Notes under the pieces: generated by a model | The model's input: the letters and a program-made list of their open reading frames with translations, nothing else | Databases searched by the model: none | What the model was told of the DNA's origin: nothing | Shown: positions 44,400 to 64,000 of the stretch, piece after piece | Numbering within the stretch: position 1 is the stretch's first letter | Layout: each line of letters starts with the position of its first letter | Program-made: the position numbers and the translations under genes | Assembly: GCA_948144175.1 (NCBI GenBank) | Contig: CANXME010000784.1 | Location: forward strand, 597,001-661,000 | Direction of reading: 5' to 3' | From: Closterium sp. NIES-65 | Taxonomy: Eukaryota > Streptophyta > Zygnematophyceae > Desmidiales > Closteriaceae | Length of the DNA stretch: 64,000 nt

Positions 44400-51620
<7,221 letters not shown>

Positions 51621-54376
51621 TCCGTGGTGGCATGCCGAAAGCTGGCACACCTGTGGCAGCCTTGAAGATAATACTATCTATTTTCTAGATTGTTGCCTGA
51701 TATCTTGTTTCATGTAGCTTGATACACATTTCAGAGGTAGTTCTCCACGAGCACTGGGTTGTATCTCTGCAAGGCTTCCAAGATTATTGTGTTGTCCCCT
51801 TGGGCCACTGATGAAGGGCTTCCATAGTTATCACCCTGTCACGGGTGCAATGAATCGAAGTAGCGAGAGTTGCACTAAGGTGTCAAACGAGTACAAAAAT
51901 GTGAGTGAAGGCATGAGCGAACATTTATATGCAAAACATGCAAACGGTAACGTGGTGCGTGCGAGCTAGCTAGTGCTACGCTGGAGCGAGGCTCGGGCTA
52001 GTCCCGAAGCGTAGGCCGACACGGCCAGGCCAGCAGTGCGAGGTTTGGTGAAACAGTGCGCGCGAAGTCGGCAAAACCCCGTTAGCAGTAACGGGCGAAC
52101 AACGGCTGTTGCTGTACGCAATGTAGTCGGGCTCCGTAAGGAATGCCGAGAAAATTCCTTACACTCCCTCTCTCTATATGTAAGAAGCTTTAAAATATGT
52201 GTGATTACTGTTACGAGGAGGTTTACACTCCACGTTCCGGTCAGCCCAAATCCGTGTGATCTTGCCAATTGAAAAACAAGATCAATCCAGATCCAGCTCC
52301 ACACGTCTCCTCAGCAGGCATCACATGCTCTGTTCAACTTGTGCCCGACCAGCATTGTGCCGTGCATCTCTCCCTGCACTGCTGGCGGATAAGGAACTTG
52401 TGCCCGACCAGCATTGTGCCGTGCATCTCTCCCTGCACTGCTGGCGGATAAGGTGTAAATTTGGAGAACTGTACCTTGACCGTCTCTCAACTCCATGTCC
52501 ACCCATCGCTCAACCAATCGATGAACAAATTGAAAGCATGCGTGATTCGTGATGCTTGTAATATCGGCGAGCGATGTCGACGTGGCTCAGATTTCTGGTC
52601 AGAATTAATATATTTCCAAAGCAGCTGGAAGGCTTTTCGTGCACTGCATTCGAAAATTCTGAAATTGCAGGCTACATGCATCCACAACCTTCTAGAACCT
52701 TCGCCCACATTCTAGAGACAAGGGCAGCAAAACTGCTTGCCAGGTGGGCATCGATAAAAAAGGTCTTCGGATATTCCTCAGGACACCTCATGCTGTGCCT
52801 TTTTCTCCTAACCCTCGCACTGCTGGCGTTTACTTTTTCTTCTCATTGACAGGTGTGAATTGGAGCGGGCTGCAGCAGAATGGAGGGGCAGATAAAGGAG
52901 TTACGGATTCGCCATTGCCAGGATGTCGTTTCGCGCCCAAAACAATGGACAGGGCACACATGGTCCATCCCGGAACTACTGTTCACTGTCGCATCAGCTG
53001 AACCTATCACTCTTTGGAATAAATCACGAGAGTTTCCCCAGTTACGACTGCCGATGTATTGTGCACTTATAGTACCTTTCTTAAAACAGAGTACGAGAGT
53101 TTCCAAGAATGGAACTTTGAGAATTTTCTCCCATAACTAAATACAATATCTCTCATGGAGGGGTACAGCCGACACTAGTGCTCGAAAGAAACCGTGGAGA
53201 AAAACGTCGGCAGCCATTAAGTGGTGAGTACATAAAGACGTAGCAGACCGAGTCAGCAGGGTAAACTTTGATTTTGGAACGTTGCCCGTTTGGAATTCCT
53301 TTCGCTTTGCCCTCATCTCTTGTCACCCCAAGAGACGTCCTTCCTGGCTCGGTGTCGTGTTGTGGGAGGAGGTTGAGGTATGGAGGAAGCTCTTGGTGGT
53401 CCGTGCTTCAAGAGCAACCAACCATCCGCTGAACCCCGATCTTTTCGTCATCCCCTCACGTGCTCCCCGTACCTGGAGGGTTGCTACGGTAATCCTCCTC
53501 AGCAGCAGCTTGGTGGCTGACGTGTTAAAATATCAACCAACGCTCCAGTGCGCGAGGTGCCTCTCGTTCCTCCCGTGCGCGAACTACAGTGTTCATTAAT
53601 GACAGTTCTTGCCCCCTTCCTGTCATTGCTGCCTGTGGGCACCTAGTGGCAGCAAGCGGAGCATGGCCCCAGTGTACACCACCGCGGAGAGCTGCCCAGC
53701 GCCCTAGCGGAAAAACAAATATCTTGCGAAAGCCGGCTCCACATTACACTTTCGTTCAGAAAAGGGGGCGCGAGTTTTCCTTTCCCACTGCGCACAGAAA
53801 TTTCCCAGCCCTTGTTCGAGTTCCATCCGGACCGCTATGATTGCATTTTATCCTTCTTCGTAAACCTGTACGCGCACAGAAGGATAACAGAGGCTGGCTG
53901 TTAACGCTACAGAGCAAGCACAGCCTTCCCGCGCGTTACGAACGTTGTCTTGAAAGTCTGCTAGAACTGGCGGGTCTTCCGACCAGAAAAGGAGTGACGT
54001 GTCCTCCTCATTCCGAGGCGAGAAGCCAACTAAGCCCTAACGCTTCTCGCAGCGCAAGCGTTGAACTGTAACTCCCATAGTCAGAGGCTAGAAGCCTTGT
54101 TTTATCAGGTGAGATTTGGGAAACACATGGTGCTTGCCGCAGATTCACGACCGCAACTCTTTTTCAAGTCACAGAGGAGCCCGGGGACACTACCGACTTC
54201 AAGGATTATCGAACGACGAGACTGAAAAATCACGCAACCTCTGACTCAGCGTCGAAGGACGCCTCCTTGCCAGGGCCTTGATTATCCTGACGAGAAATCC
54301 ACTCACACGCGTCATTCGCTGTCAAAATTCGTTGCGACTCACTGGTCGACTCGATTCGAATTCGCCCTCCATTGTC
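51621..54376. other. Intergenic interval between DPP and RWP-RK genes
   Basis: No convincing gene. There are open frames of 60-110 codons but no recognisable motif. It includes the DPP 3' UTR and a 59-bp tandem duplication (52336-52453). Confidence 0.5.
52336..52453. repeat. Perfect 59-bp tandem duplication
   Basis: AACTTGTGCCCGACCAGCAT... to GGCGGATAAGG occurs at 52336 and again at 52395 without a visible difference. Confidence 0.9.
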
Positions 54377-57107: not shown

Positions 57108-57590
57108 ACCCAGTGTGAGCTACATATTCATCGCAGCGAGCTGTATGATGCATACATCCATGCTTCCACTACAGAAGCCTAACCAGCGAGCCATGCATGC
57201 ATATAACGATGCACAAACCTGCCCAGCGGTGCAAGCTTGATGTTCATCGTTGCCCAAGGCAGCTGAGCTCAGATGCGCCTCATGTTTACTTCCAGCCATC
57301 GACTCCCCCACAGCGACCTAAGAAATCATCGTGACGTGAAACACCGCAGTCCACACACCCAGTGTAAGCGTGATGTTCATTGCTGCCAGCTCAGCAGCCA
57401 GATACTTGAACACATACGGCATGGCCACTCGCACCACGCCCTTTCGAAGTAGACTCAGAAGTCACAGGCCTCACACACCCAGTGTGAGCTTGATGTTCAT
57501 TGCTGCCAGCTCAGCAGCCAGATACTTGAACACATACGGCATGGCCACTCGCACCACGCCCTTTCGAAGTAGACTCAGAAGTCACAGGCC
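57108..57590 (-). repeat. Tandem copies of the RPA2 3' end downstream of the stop codon
   Basis: The last about 100 bp of the RPA2 coding sequence, including the stop (CACACCCAGTGTGAGCTTGA on the plus strand), recurs at exactly 120-bp steps at about 57475 and 57355. Clearly decayed versions are at about 57228 and 57110. The two nearest copies still encode [20 protein letters not shown] plus the tail on the minus strand. Confidence 0.93.
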
Positions 57591-60500
57591 TCACACACCC
57601 AGTGTGAGCTTGATGTTCATTGCTGCCAGCTCAGCAGCCAGATACTTGAACACATACGGCATCGCCACTCGCACCACGCCCTTCCCCGTACCACACACAC
57701 GACACACCATCTTCTTCTGTCGCAGCTCCCCCCCCACCGTCCCATACCCCACGCCAGCCCCCAGCCCCAGGCCTAGCGCCACAGCTGTGTCCGAACCTGC
57801 CGACCCGCCTCGGGGACGAGACAGCGCCGGAGCTAGCAGGGAGCCGCAGAGAGAGCAGACGTCAGTGGTGTGGTAGTCTGAGCACGAGTGTAGCCGGTCG
57901 TGTAAGAGAAACGCCGCGCCGTGGGACAGCATTGCATCGCGCTCCATCTCTCCGAACCGCACTCCACCGCCCTTCTTCCTCCCCTTCACCGGTTGCTGCG
58001 TGAGCGGGTTCACAGGCCCGGTAGACCGCACCTGGAATTTATCTGATACCATGTGCCGCAGCCGCTGATAATACACCACTCCTAGGTAAATTTCACACTC
58101 CATTTCGCACCCGTACACTCCGCTATACATGGTCTCTGTGCCATAGTAGCTGAATCCCTTTTCCACCAGTTGCCGCCCGAATGTGTCCACCAGATCCTCG
58201 CGATTCTGTGGCTGATTTGATTCTCCTGCCCTACCTGCTGCCGCCGGACCTGCAGCAGGTTTGGCAGCCAGGCCAGGCTTGGCAGATGAAGCAGGGGTTG
58301 GGAGATCCAAGGGTGTGAAACTTCCAGGCCCTTTCTCAGCACCACCAGCAGCAGCAGGAGTGGCAGGAGTAGCAGGGGTGGGGGGGGCACCAGATTTCTT
58401 GTGCAGTTTTGGGCGGGGTACAGGAGTGGAGAGACCAGGGGTACCAGCAGAGGAACGGGCCAATCGGGAGGCGCCACGTCGCGGGGCGGGCTGGCGAGAC
58501 TTGAGGCTCATGGTGAGCGGCGGGGGGTTGGGCGTGGCAGGGCGGAACGGGGAAGCATCCACGAAGTTTCCGTGCAAGGCTCCACCCTGCCATGGAGGGG
58601 AGGAGGTTGGGATGATGCGGAAGGAAAGCAGAACAAACAAGTTTGAAAGGGTATACAAAGAGAGACAAGGGAACAGGGAGGGGGGGGGGGGGGTGAGGGA
58701 AATGGAAACATTAGAGGGTTGGGGCGAAATGGACTCAACCTAGCCACCACAGACCCAACGAGCAGGGCAACGCCAAGCCAAGCACATCTCATCTCAACTC
58801 ACCTTGGCTGCAACTGATTCGACGAGCATGCCTATGGTCATGCGCGAGGGGAAGGCGTGGGGGTTGATGATGATGTCTGGACGCATGCCGGAGGAGGAGG
58901 CGAAGGGAGGAAGGGTATCGACTCAGGACACAAGTCACTCTGCACAGCAAACGCCTTTCTCTCACCTTAGCAGCAACTGACTCGACGAGCATGCCAATGG
59001 TCATGCGCGAGGGGAAGGCATGGGGGTTGATTATGATGTCTGGACGGATGCCGGAGGAGGAGGCGAAGGGCATGTCCACATCGGGCCAGAGCTGTGACAG
59101 CACTCCCTTCTGCCCGTGCCTGCTGCTGAACTTGTCTCCTATTTGTGGCAGGCGACCAAAGCGCATGCGCACGGATGCCTGCGGGGAAAGGAAGGAAAAA
59201 GGGGAATAGGGGGGTACAGATGGGTGCAGAAGGGTGCAGATGGGTACAACAGAGGTGGTGGGGAGGGGGATCCAGGGAGGGTGGCAGGTCGGCATTCTAA
59301 CAGGGGAGGAGGAGGAGGCGAAGGGCATGTCCACATCGGGCCAGAGCTGTGACAGCACTCCCTTCTGCCCGTGCCTGCTGCTGAACTTGTCCCCTATCTG
59401 CGGCAAGCGCCCAAAGCACATGCGCGCGGAGGCCTGGAACAAGGTACGGGGTGGTACAGGAGTGGCCAAGGGAGAATGGTGGGTGAATCTCACTTCCCTG
59501 AGTACACACCCTTGTGCCCGTGGCGGCTGCTGAACTTGTCCCCTATTTGCAGCATGCGACCAGAGAGGAGCCGAACGGAAGCATGCAACGGCGGGAAGCA
59601 GGGGATGGCGATGCAGGGATACGGGGGAACAGGGACACAGAGATACAGAAGGGTTGTACTTTGGCACCTGCCTAAGCCACTGCCATGCCTGTTCTTTTCC
59701 TGCATCTACTGATCGCACCTTAGTGAGGGCTGTCTTGGGGCCGGTGCCGGTGAGTGTGGGTGACCCTATCCACCACCGCATCCTCCCACCCCTTCAGTTT
59801 CATCTCATCCGCTCATGATCAGAGTGAACCCTCCCCCCACGATCCCCCTGTGCCTACTCAGCTGAAAGTCCCTCATCTGAGCCTCCCACGCACCTTGGTG
59901 AGCGCTGTCTTGGGGCCGGTGCCGATAATCGTGACCCCATCCACCACCGCATCCTCCCACCCCTTCAACCCCTCCAGCCATCCTCCCCACCGTTGACGAC
60001 CCCAATACCCCCCCACCTTTCCTGCACCTTCTATCAAACCTCACCACAGAGGTTCAGGGCCGCACCTTAGTGAGCGCTGTCTTAGCGCCGGTGCCGATGA
60101 GCGTGACCCCGTCCACCACCGCATCCTCTGACCCCTTGAGCTTGATCTCGTCCGCCTTGCCCGTCACCGTGTTCACCTTGCATGCATACACGTCGCCGCT
60201 CGTGATGTGCTGTTAAGGGGGTAGCGGAATGAAAGGGAGGGGGGGGGGGATGTGATTTAGATAGCACCAATTCTGTCGCCTCCGCCTTGGCCCCTTGCCA
60301 GCCGCCCCCCCATCATCCCCCTACCTCCCTCCCTCCGCGCCCCCTCCCCTCATAACAAACGCACCTCCCCGGGGCGGGGCAGCCCATCGGTGTCGATGGT
60401 CCACTTGTGCCCGCGCCTGTTCCCAGCCGCCCGCCCCAGCATCTGCACTGCCAGGCCAGCCCTTTGCCTCTCTCTCTCCCTCCCTCCCATTCGCCCACTT

Positions 60501-63500
60501 AATCCCTTGGTTCATTCACTCACGCACCTCCCCAGGGCGGGGCAGCCCATCAGTGTCAATGGTCCACTTGTGCCTGCGCTGGTTGCTAACAGGCCGCCCC
60601 AGAATCGGCACAGGCAAACCCTCTGCGCTCACCTCCCCAGGGCGGGGCAGCCCATCGGTGTCGATGGTCCACTTGTGTCCGCGCCGGTGACTGGCCGCCC
60701 GCCCCAGCATCTGCACGGGCAGCCCGGACGGCGTGAACTTGGCCACACGTGCCGCTGAGCCCTGGGTGGCCTCGATCACCTCGTTCTGTTACGGAGTGGG
60801 ATCCGGGCGGCGGGCGGGCGGCAAGACAGAGATGTGGCAAAACAAAAGGAGGCTCATGAGGGTACAGGGCGTGGGTGGGTATCGAATTGGCTCAGGTGCA
60901 TTGTAGAACTAACAGTACCATGTGGATGTAACCGTACCTTGTAGATGTAACCGTACATTGTAGATGTAACCGTACCTGGTAGATGTAACCGTACCTGGTA
61001 GATGTAACCGTACCTTATAGATGTAACCGTACATTGTAGATGTAACCGTACCTTGTATATGTAACCGTACCTTGTAGATGTAACCGTACATTGTAGATGT
61101 AGCCGTACCTTGTAGATGTAACCGTACATTGTAGATGTAACCGTACCTTGTAGATGTACCCGTACCTTGTAGATGTAACCGTACCTTGTAGATGTAACCG
61201 TGGCCAAAGCCCCTCTCCATGGACGACTTGTTGATGATCATCGCATCCTCCATGTCGTACCTGGTGCACGGGCAGGTGAACGGGCAGGTGCACGGGCAGG
61301 TGAACGGGCAGGTGCACGGGCAGGTGTACGGGCAGGTGTACGGGCAGGTGTACGGGCAGGTGAACGGGCAGATGAATGGCGAGTAACGGGCACACATGGC
61401 GTTGGAAGAAAACAAGCGAGTGGGACGTGTGAGATAGAGCAGACGCACAGCCATGGGAGTCGTACAACTATGAGGTGTACCCCTTACAGCAAACCCCACA
61501 TACCTGGTATAAGCCAGCACGGGCACGGCCACCACAGCATTGGCTCCCGCTATACCTGTGCAAAGGGGCGAGCCGAGTAATGCTCGACTCCTCCCTAGCC
61601 TTGCTCGGCCGAGTACGAGCCCGAGTCGAGTAATACTCGGCCGAGCATTTTTCCCCCAAACAGATACTCGGTACTCGCCTTTTTAAAGGAAACTCGGGCG
61701 AGCATTTAGAAAAGCTCATCCGAGTACGAGTAATGCTCGGCCATGTGCCCTACTCCTGCATATAATGACTCTGTACGTTACATCTAGTGAAGGCCATTGG
61801 TACCACGGGAGTATTGGGGTTTCCAGGGCCGCCCAGGCAAACCCAAGGTGGTCCCAGGAAGCCTAGGGAAGCCCAGGAAAGCCCTGGGTTGCCCTGGGTA
61901 GCCCAGGGTAGACCTGGATAGGCGAGTACTCGTCGAGCAAAAAAAACTCGGCGAGTAAAACTCGGCTCGACTCGCCCGAGTAAAATTTACAAAAACCGAA
62001 ACTCGTTACTCGCACCCAAACGAGTAACGCGGGCGATACCGAGCGAGTAACTCGTCTCGTTGCACAGGTATAGCTCCCACCGGGTGTTGATCCTTGGCAT
62101 AGTCATCATACGCTGCCGTGCTGCTGCCCACTCACTCACCCATCCCCCTTGTAGCACACCCACATACTCAGTATAAGCCAGCACCGCAACGACAGCGTTG
62201 GCCCCAGTGGGGTAGTGGTCCATGGCATAGTCGTCATACGCTGCCGTGCTGCCCCCCCCTCTCCCATCCATGATCCATTCCCCCAATAGCACACCCCACA
62301 TACCAGGTATAAGCACATACCCGGTATAAGCACATACCCGGTATAAGCCAGCACGGCCACGACCGCGTTGGCCCCAGTGGGGTAGTGGTCCATGGCATAG
62401 TCGTCATACGCTGCCGTGCGTGCGATGGGCGTCTGGGGCGTCTGTAGGCGGTACAGCTTGTTGTCGTTGCGGAAGGGGAACGAGTGCAGCGGCATGCCCA
62501 TCGTTTGCTTCCCCATCTGTTGTATACAGACATATGAGACACATGCATGGTGGGCCAACACACACACACATCCATGTTGAGACGATGGGCAGTAAGAGCA
62601 CATCAGCAGCACATGCTGACCTGGCACTGGTACATGCTGTGCTGACCCGACACTTGTACAAGCTGTGCTGACCTGTCAAGGGTACATGCTGTGCTGAACT
62701 GGCACTGGTACATATTGTGCTGACCTGGCACTGGTACATGTTGTGCTGACCTGGCACTGGTACATATTGTGCTGACCTGGCACTGGTACATATTGTGCTG
62801 ACCTGGCACTGGTACATGTTGTGCTGACCTGGCACTGGTACATGTTGTGCTGACCTGGCACTGGTAAATATTGTGCTGACCTGGCACTGGTACATATTGT
62901 GCTGACCAGGCACTGGTACATCCTGTGCTGACCTGGCACTGGTACATGTGCTGACCTGGCACTGGTACATATTGTGCTGACCTGGCACTGGTACATATTG
63001 TGCTGACCTGGCACTGGTACATGTTGTGCTGACCTGGCACTGGTACATGTTGTGCTGACCTGGCACTGGTAAATATTGTGCTGACCTGGCACTGGTACAT
63101 ATTGTGCTGACCTGGCACTGGTACATCCTGTGCTGACCTGGCACTGGTACATCCTGTGCTGACCTGGCACTGGTACATGTTGCGGGGGCTCTGGTTGTAA
63201 TCGGACCAAGGGGTCAGGCTCGCCATCACACTCAGGATATCCGTCGGCCGAACCTCCTCGTGCGTCGCCGAACCTGTCGCCGAGGCTTGGCCGGACGGGG
63301 CGGAAGGGGCCGACGAACCATCGGGGCAGAGCACGTCAAGAAAGACCTGCCGGGGGAGAAAGGCCGGGAAGGGGTGGGGAAGGAAGAGGACGGGGAGAGG
63401 GATTTTTGCGTCGACTTGAAATTCACGATGAGCATCCGGGCAGAGCACGTCGAGAAAGACCTGATAGGAAGGGAGGAAGAGGGGGATGAAGGAGAAGAGA

Positions 63501-64000
63501 CGGAAAGGAGTAGGGGGGAAGGGGGAGACGGGGTACAAGAGAGAAAGGGGAAAAGTGGGAGAAGAAAGAAAGAGACATGGGAGAGTTGTAGTCCTGTGAG
63601 TGGATAGGGAGAGTACGCATGGTGGGCGTGGGCGAGTGAGAAGCAGAACCCAGCAGATGTAGCTCAGTGCTCTGCTCTGCTTCTCACATGCCCACGCCCA
63701 CCACGTGTACTCTACCTACCTCGCTCCCATGCCGTTCTCGTTGCTACTACTGCTACTCCAGTGCCCACCTGCTCCAGTACCCACCTGCCCCAGTGCCCAC
63801 CTGCTCCAGTGCCCACCTGCTCCAGTGCCCACCTGCCCCAGTGCCCACCTGCCCCAGTGCCCACCTGCCCCAGTGCTCACCTGCTCGAGGCTGCCAATGA
63901 GCTCGAAGGTGGGTGCAGCGGCGGCCCTGGGGTTGAGGGAGGGCAGCTGCCGCACAGGCCGAACGAAGCGAGCCGGCGCAGAGAAGAGGAAAATGCCCGG
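57591..64000 (-). CDS. RPA2: RNA polymerase I second-largest subunit (RPA2/A135), 3' part
   Basis: Forms the Pol I active-site cleft for rRNA synthesis in the nucleolus. Exons in gene order: 64000-63881 ([21 protein letters not shown]), 63346-63164, 62516-62338, 61260-61185, 60785-60633, 60209-60066, 59178-58966, 58586-57591. Signatures include [104 protein letters not shown] and a C-terminal zinc site C-x2-C...C-x2-C. Of the three polymerases, Pol I is indicated by [20 protein letters not shown] and the C-terminal layout. A Pro/Ala/Gly-rich insertion of about 100 residues lies between FVDASPF and [11 protein letters not shown]. The 5' exons lie outside the window. Every intron holds copies of exon edges. 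Exons 60785-60633 and 60209-60066 are less conserved and their limits less sure. Confidence 0.9.
58801..58905 (-). repeat. Echo of an RPA2 exon end (58966-59178 exon)
   Basis: Repeats the last about 100 bp of the exon ending at 58966, including GGCATGCTCGTCGAATCAGT and the donor AAG|GTGAG. It encodes [20 protein letters not shown]-type sequence. Confidence 0.9.
59307..59590 (-). repeat. Echoes of the RPA2 [14 protein letters not shown] exon start
   Basis: Two diverged copies (59307-59437 and about 59519-59585) of the start of exon 59178-58966, each preceded in the gene sense by a GC(A)G-type acceptor region. The first encodes [20 protein letters not shown]; the second is shorter ([15 protein letters not shown]). 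Confidence 0.9.
59717..59975 (-). repeat. Echoes of the RPA2 exon 60066-60209 end with donor
   Basis: Two copies of the exon end (GTGGTGGATGGGGTCAC to GCGCTCACCAAG|GTGCGT), at about 59893-59970 and 59720-59805. They encode [17 protein letters not shown]-like sequence and keep GT after AAG. Confidence 0.9.
60366..60612 (-). repeat. Echoes of the RPA2 exon 60633-60785 end with donor
   Basis: Copies at about 60530-60612 and 60366-60445 encode [17 protein letters not shown] and end GGGGAG|GTGCGT. They follow the true exon end at 60633 in the gene sense. Confidence 0.9.
60909..61184 (-). repeat. 19-bp minisatellite derived from an RPA2 5' splice site
   Basis: About 14 further copies of the exon end TTACATCTACAAG|GTACGG follow the true donor at 61184-61183. 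Each unit (GGTTACATCTACAAGGTAC) contains the last exon codons (Gly-Tyr-Ile-Tyr-Lys) and a donor GTAC. Variants (ATTG, CTGG, CTTA on the plus strand) are scattered. Confidence 0.93.
61263..61385 (-). repeat. 12-bp repeat next to an RPA2 3' splice site
   Basis: About ten units of GTGCACGGGCAG / GTGAACGGGCAG / GTGTACGGGCAG (plus strand). On the minus strand they give a C-rich tract that ends CCCGTGCACCAG at the acceptor of exon 61260-61185. Confidence 0.9.
61490..62335 (-). repeat. Echoes of the RPA2 exon 62338-62516 end
   Basis: At least two diverged copies of the exon end follow the true donor at 62337: about 62160-62260 (encoding [20 protein letters not shown]) and 62075-62130 plus 61501-61548, the latter split by an inserted MITE. 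A short TATACCGGGTATGTGCT duplication lies directly at the true donor (62305-62337). Confidence 0.88.
61549..62074. mobile_element. MITE-like element with 15-bp terminal inverted repeats
   Basis: GCTATACCTGTGCAA at 61549-61563 is inverted at 62060-62074 (TTGCACAGGTATAGC), flanked by TCCC on both sides (61545-61548 and 62075-62078; CTCCC if one terminal base is shared). The 526-bp body is non-coding and rich in CGAGTA/TACTCG and CTCGGCCGAG palindromes. Removing it rejoins an exon echo. The 4-5-bp target duplication does not settle the superfamily. Confidence 0.8.
62605..63163 (-). repeat. 25-bp minisatellite derived from an RPA2 5' splice site
   Basis: About 21 further copies follow the true exon end (CAACATGTACCAGTGCCAG|GTCAGC, donor at 63163). 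The unit is about 25 bp (ATGTACCAGTGCCAGGTCAG plus CACA), and almost every unit keeps CAG|GTCAGC. A seven-unit block is present twice as a higher-order repeat. The units farthest from the exon (62617-62690) are the most changed. Confidence 0.95.
63425..63467 (-). repeat. Echo of the start of RPA2 exon 63164-63346
   Basis: GCATCCGGGCAGAGCACGTC... to AAAGACCTG on the plus strand repeats the exon start (CAG|GTCTTTCT..GACGTGCTCTGC) about 115 bp upstream in the gene sense, with its acceptor. Confidence 0.85.
63755..63880 (-). repeat. 16-bp minisatellite derived from an RPA2 5' splice site
   Basis: About eight units of GGCACTGGGGCAGGTG / GGCACTGGAGCAGGTG follow the exon end CTCGAGCAG|GTGAGCAC at 63881. 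Each unit has CAG|GTGGGC, a donor-like match. Confidence 0.92.

Follow-up and report, generated by a model that had tools for sequence, protein, structure and literature searches.

The 5' end of one intron of RPA2, the gene for the second-largest subunit of RNA polymerase I, consists in Closterium sp. NIES-65 of a tandem array in which the end of the preceding exon and its splice donor are repeated as a 26-bp unit, so that the intron opens with 22 exon-intron junctions, 21 of them with GT. The array is very probably a minisatellite of the mirage type, i.e., a tolerated and functionless by-product of a wider process of tandem duplication that crosses exon edges. It is one among many exon-edge duplications, found at donor and acceptor edges and in several genes, a context that was overlooked in the earlier note on this DNA, in which the array was first pointed out.

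RPA2 and its donor array

The 3' part of RPA2 lies on the minus strand in the last 6.4 kb of the window analysed, i.e., the whole stretch of 64,000 nucleotides, and the gene was traced further upstream, past the window edge, on the same contig. Gene models were built from homology and open frames. A phmmer comparison with the RPA2/RPA135 chains of PDB showed matches to the RPA2 of yeasts and human, and the homology-based spliced model has GT-AG introns and no interruption of frame; both agree with the earlier note in the identity of the gene and in the position of the array at an exon end. A second gene with exon-edge copies, DPP-IV-like, is located on the plus strand of the window (Table 1), and positions 1-39900 contain long open frames, presumably several copies of Copia-type retrotransposons. 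A 120-bp tandem repeat (2.8 copies, 98%) extends from the coding end of RPA2 across the stop codon into the first part of the 3' UTR (window 57352-57683), where a second contig is 120 bp shorter.

Over the array, Tandem Repeats Finder gave a period of 26, 22.0 copies, 92% matches and a score of 914; the unit, previously taken to be 25 bp, is 26 bp long, with a single unit of 23 bp. The array forms the 5' end of the intron following the exon that closes with ...NMYQCQ/GT, and the best junction copy in this intron was matched by 0 of 200 dinucleotide shuffles of the same intron. GTCAGCA is present at 21 of the 22 junctions, TTCAGCA at one (offset 465), and CAGGTCAGC is exact in 19/22, in line with the initial description of about 22 near-equivalent donors. 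The duplication of a seven-unit block, likewise noticed before, was recovered as well, units 10-16 being the same as units 2-8 with one difference. The idea that mutations accumulate with distance from the exon, and that the array grew outward, was not supported: mismatch to the consensus shows no gradient over the 20 units that are 26 bp long (Spearman rho 0.13, p 0.60), and the changes per unit amount to six each in units 19 and 20, three in unit 10 and two each in units 1, 2 and 21, only units 19 and 20 being clearly degenerate and the last unit (21) not.

Exact 22-mers of the array number 15 in the window contig and 15 in a second contig (C1266). From 60 to 66 kb the two contigs differ by three indels of 1-6 bp and by zero substitutions, and C1266 is therefore no independent confirmation of the array length. 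Homogenisation of the arrays, considered on account of their low divergence between contigs (1 substitution in 1918 bp), was rejected because the whole block from 60 to 66 kb is without substitutions. Apart from the two copies of the RPA2 locus, no place in the 874-Mb assembly has the exact 22-mer (exact match only), which makes the array unlike a dispersed, introner-type element, and a search of the window and of locus L012 against Rfam at the gathering score gave no match.

The conserved protein join, as known from the RPA2 of fission yeast, is restored only by the exon-proximal donor, and this donor is presumably the one used, judging from the sequence. The expectation that mis-chosen donors would usually be out of frame holds for 14 of 20 decoys, which shift the frame and stop early, but not for six of 20 (offsets 78, 156, 231, 309, 387 and 543), which are in frame and open and would add 26 to 181 residues to the 1,240-residue partial RPA2 protein. 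The array may serve as a natural test of 5' splice-site choice, with 21 donors of GTCAGCA core of which one is correct, and with 6/20 errors that would be readable as a longer protein.

Table 1. Exon-edge arrays and copies, adjoining RPA2 exons, and palindromes. Positions refer to the window unless another locus is named; a slash marks the boundary of exon and intron.
Feature	Position	Strand	Basis
RPA2, donor-spanning array, 22 junctions, 21 with GT	62614..63182	-	Tandem Repeats Finder
RPA2 exon ending ...SPRNMYQCQ/	63164..63346	-	phmmer to PDB RPA2/RPA135 chains; open spliced model
Next RPA2 exon, MGKQTMG...LAYTG	62338..62516	-	homology, open spliced model
RPA2, 16-bp array, 8.2 copies, donor of preceding intron (exon ...CTCGAGCAG/GTGAGCAC)	63756..63886	-	Tandem Repeats Finder
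RPA2, 17-bp array, 3.1 copies, donor of next intron (CTTATACCGG/GTATGTG)	62297..62348	-	
RPA2, 19-bp donor-spanning array, 15.8 copies (GGTTACATCTACAAG/GTACGG)	60901..61201	-	
RPA2, 105-bp duplication over exon end LPRPGE/GTGAGC; another copy at offset 268	60525..60721	-	
RPA2 intron, two extra copies of exon end ...TALTK/GTGCG (offsets 172, 347)	59719..60065	-	
RPA2 intron stretch, extra copy of exon end ...ESVAAK/GTGAGT (offset 163)	58802..58965	-	
RPA2, acceptor-side copy AG/GTCTTTCT..., 114 bp upstream of true exon start	63347..63460	-	
DPP-IV-like intron, exon end copied twice on the donor side (offsets 153, 317)	45614..46194	+	
DPP-IV-like, exon start EEMERR copied twice on the acceptor side, 165 and 361 bp upstream	46789..47149	+	
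DPP-IV-like, 124-bp donor-spanning duplication, 2.7 copies	47236..47571	+	
DPP-IV-like, 164-bp donor-spanning duplication, 1.9 copies; more copies at offsets 419, 614	49157..49461	+	
TTGAG-N4-CTCAA sites	L012:4319, 4370, 6239, 7792; window 49758; L044 (17 matches), L046, L048, others		

Exon-edge copies in other introns and genes

Besides the short-unit arrays, the longer exon-edge copies in RPA2 and the DPP-IV-like gene have offsets between 105 and 834 bp (Table 1); the exon end CTTATACCGG of RPA2, e.g., recurs also at offsets 170 and 834. Another donor array of RPA2 (17 bp, 7 copies) was identified upstream of the window, and the RPA2_1 intron, additional to the 31 introns with copies counted below, has a short donor array only. 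A 12-bp array (9.5 copies; window 61263-61376) ends at the RPA2 acceptor before GTACGACATGG and is without exon sequence, and a 24-bp array of 28 copies (83% alike; L012:138-825) lies within an RPA2 intron, clear of both splice sites.

Among the 13 introns of the window, the donor junction was copied in 11 and the acceptor junction in three (20-nt criterion). The sample was extended to 39 introns, comprising these 13, nine from RPA2 upstream of the window and 17 from six of eleven chaperonin loci, with a copy defined as 21 of 30 matching bases. Donor copies were present in 23/39 introns, acceptor copies in 19/39, either kind in 31/39 and both in 11/39, whereas the same queries run against the introns of other genes gave 0/1164 and 2/1164 (pooled 2/2328). 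The splice sites of the 17 chaperonin introns were set by a script with a splice matrix derived from 22 RPA2 and DPP introns, and some of them have low scores. In all eleven chaperonin loci the 3' edge was copied for 20 and the 5' edge for 23 of 47 exon matches, against 0/141 and 2/141 in a control with the flank of another gene; the 47, out of 93 matches, are those on one chosen contig per gene, the matches in the 874-Mb assembly being mostly on pairs of contigs. Two further families, with overlapping partial exon matches, were left out of the counts. An excess of donor over acceptor copies, as suggested by 11/13 vs 3/13 and conceivable if first-come splicing tolerated donor duplications, was dropped, because the chaperonins are even (10/17 each) and the pooled counts are 23 vs 19 of 39 (Fisher p 0.50).

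Local duplication was scored as the proportion of 40-base windows with a copy 45-700 bp away, and amounted to 54-67% in the last 80 nt of exons, 24-33% in the first 80 nt and 0% more than 200 nt inside an exon, with a background of 7% in intergenic DNA and 7% in the transposon part. The chaperonin loci had a mean of 26.5% (1.6-57%), compared with 8.2% (0.4-13%) in six random 4-kb regions. The duplication process is uneven among genes, since two genes elsewhere in the window, an RWP-RK gene and a putative one at 40-43 kb (7%), as well as the chaperonin loci L053 and L054, are at background. It is not restricted to exon edges either, since the remaining intron sequence of both RPA2 and DPP, with copies and arrays excluded, is itself somewhat raised (11.6%, where two intergenic stretches give 2.7%). 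Of the 39 introns, five (all in RPA2) have a short-unit array that touches the donor and two have one that touches the acceptor; 24 array rows are wholly intron-interior, and no clear excess of such arrays at donors over random placement was found in the 39 introns.

Several other repeats were encountered. Palindromes of the form TTGAG-N4-CTCAA occur 36 times in 196 kb, against about 0.2 expected under uniform base composition; the centre is self-complementary in 30/36, and 28/36 extend to palindromes of 20-46 bp whose arms differ between loci. A long palindrome of this kind is contained in an 81-bp insertion by which the second contig differs within an RPA2 intron (window 59928). Between genes, a perfect 59-bp tandem duplication (window 52336-52453) is accompanied by a second contig that is 59 bp shorter. 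The rubisco large-subunit gene is repeated in both orientations on single contigs of G000 (C40, C75, C97, C162, C824, C1848 and C2174), as if plastid DNA had been assembled as concatemers. Its protein scores higher with PDB entries presumed to be of land plants than with those presumed to be of Chlamydomonas, which, together with the RWP-RK domain, points to a streptophyte.

Origin of the copies and alternative explanations

The preferred account starts from a short segment over the exon end and the 5' splice site that would have been duplicated in tandem, as the tandem structure and the block duplication show, whereupon the copy number would have risen by slippage or unequal exchange, the array itself probably having no function of its own. 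The array would be one case of a wider process in this genome, tandem duplications between about 16 bp and a few hundred bp in size crossing exon edges, donors and acceptors alike. Since all array copies are intronic, the exon-proximal donor would still yield normal mRNA, and edge duplications would persist because they are spliced out. Two other RPA2 donor arrays differ in length between contigs by whole units, one by a single unit of 140 bp and the other by two units of 17 bp (34 bp).

Retention of splice signals was assessed on copies located by exon sequence alone, with two long short-unit arrays left out. Such exon-edge copies keep GT in 31/36 and AG in 24/28, and about 86-87% is expected from the mismatch at the first two codon positions. 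Higher first counts in RPA2 and DPP (GT in 53/55, AG in 12/14) had suggested that decoy splice sites are under selection. This was rejected, as the retention given above corresponds to the neutral rate, whereas in the first counts the locating query contained the splice site and short-unit arrays were included. Between contigs, copies show 6.7 substitutions per kb (20 in 2,967), compared with 5.9 for intron sequence elsewhere (50 in 8,535), 5.5 for sequence not belonging to either gene and 2.4 for exons (17 in 6,988), and the long-unit copies thus look neutral in their drift. Mismatch between copy and exon reaches 24-25% at third codon positions vs 6-9% at positions 1 and 2, an excess which is larger than the two-fold expected from free drift of copy and exon and also exceeds the prediction of drift plus conversion. 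A role of the copies as alternative coding exons, which this third-position excess had brought up, was discarded in view of the neutral substitution density and of the gaps, 31/35 of which shift the frame; in the tally of gaps and flanks a few weak copies may have been counted twice (e.g., RPA2_16, offsets 163 and 227).

These results bear on the proposal that the donor array is functional, with many U1 sites strengthening or regulating RPA2 splicing, or with failed transcripts tuning the level of Pol I. About 22 equal donors is an extreme number, GT is kept at 21/22 junctions and the units are near identical; however, long-unit decoys of like kind are kept only at the neutral rate and have substitutions as dense as introns do, the 26-bp array itself being situated in a substitution-free block, and we consider such a function very unlikely. 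That the array is an artefact of the assembly would be in keeping with a second contig that has no substitution over the 6 kb around it and is thus not independent, but the array units differ in a patterned way, like features are present in most sampled introns, and elsewhere the contigs differ in sequence yet align across copies with a few length differences of unit size, so that we give an artefact hardly any credence. A further alternative is a copying that is specific for exons, either RNA-templated or by repair with filler, and which would transfer the edge and its splice signal only, other than in ordinary tandem duplication. Exon edges are enriched over intergenic DNA, and in some copies the exon part is 92-97% identical while no homology is detectable on the intron side. 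On average the similarity stops abruptly at the splice site, the mismatch rate leaping from about 10% to 56-67% beyond intron position +6. However, intron-side similarity exceeds all null comparisons in 16/36 donor copies and 12/28 acceptor copies, the rate to be expected by chance being about 1 in 12 (up to 12 comparisons per copy), and the young cases, e.g., C43 with a unit of 173 bp and the 120-bp terminal-exon repeat (98% alike), are plain tandem repeats through both exon and intron parts, which makes exon-specific copying improbable.

Not every copy can be accounted for by tandem duplication followed by uniform neutral drift alone. The simplest account of matched and unmatched flanks together, we infer, is that of old tandem duplications whose exon parts were sometimes overwritten; some copies would probably have been overwritten occasionally from the conserved exon by gene conversion, and the exon-derived parts would then stay recognisable after the intron flanks have diverged. 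One of 20 sites co-varies, copy site 59353 and exon site 59098 differing identically between contigs, and this co-variation (about 2% by chance, a hand estimate) points to conversion as a hint, not as proof. On a wider scale it is possible, though rather doubtful, that most introns of some genes are echo chambers, into which the adjoining exon edges and their splice signals are copied repeatedly while conversion from the exon maintains their similarity, in a pervasive and hitherto unrecognised kind of intron growth outside chordates; if so, splicing must pick the right donor among up to 21 near-identical ones.

Comparison with known boundary duplications

A human minisatellite that provides multiple splice donors was reportedly described by Turri, Cuin and Porter in 1995, in a gene said to be IFI6/6-16, alias G1P3. 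As in that minisatellite, the units of the RPA2 array supply splice donors, which are predicted here from sequence. Internal tandem repeats at exon-intron boundaries that alter intron structure are mentioned for human segmental duplications in PMC2812944; in contrast to those repeats, which according to that paper may create novel introns in recent paralogs, the copies reported here are contained in the introns of conserved genes. A new intron can result from a tandem duplication that involves splice signals, and a case in potato crosses an intron-exon boundary, as stated in PMC4974935, whereas in Closterium the copies are in existing introns and none of these is shown to be new. The literature searched (titles and abstract openings) describes no exon-edge copies for a green alga, which is no proof of absence, and passages of two papers on algal genomes (PMC6330051, PMC11228838) hold nothing bearing on them. 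A genome of the plant lineage with copies in 31/39 sampled introns would allow the choice of the spliceosome among identical neighbouring sites to be tested at scale, and likewise the frequency with which boundary duplications contribute to the growth of introns or to new ones.

The closest counterparts are the mirages of amphioxus, whose original report is said to be that of Canestro et al. in 2002. The earlier note had known of no described class of such repeats, yet the class is on record. As defined in PMC3087553, mirages are minisatellite-like tandem duplications of exon-intron boundaries in Adh3 and globin genes, with units of 10-72 bp in Adh3 and 150-160 bp in globin genes; they affect both boundaries, AG/GT is found in many units, copy number varies by haplotype, and regular splicing is reported by the authors to be seemingly undisturbed. 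Somatic instability is counted as another trait of the class. The RPA2 array resembles them in that its unit spans the boundary (exon end and donor), the sampled introns are affected at both edges (donor 23/39, acceptor 19/39), and splice signals are kept, at 21/22 junctions in the array and in 31/36 (GT) and 24/28 (AG) of the long copies; two size classes of units, as in amphioxus, are also seen here. It differs in being found in a streptophyte and not in a chordate, and in that most sampled introns are affected, whereas mirages were named in PMC3087553 for a few amphioxus genes; the globin example given there has 3 and 6 units, compared with 22 in the RPA2 array. With respect to the length variation of mirages among haplotypes, the 26-bp array is equal in both contigs, within a substitution-free block, and two other donor arrays differ by whole units between contigs that are either haplotypes or recent duplicates. 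The concerted evolution of mirages may have a counterpart here in the duplicated seven-unit block, the homogeneous units and one co-varying site of exon and copy. Because of this close anatomical match we class the array as a mirage-type repeat, one that appears, as far as the literature was searched, to be new in its lineage and in the density of such copies.
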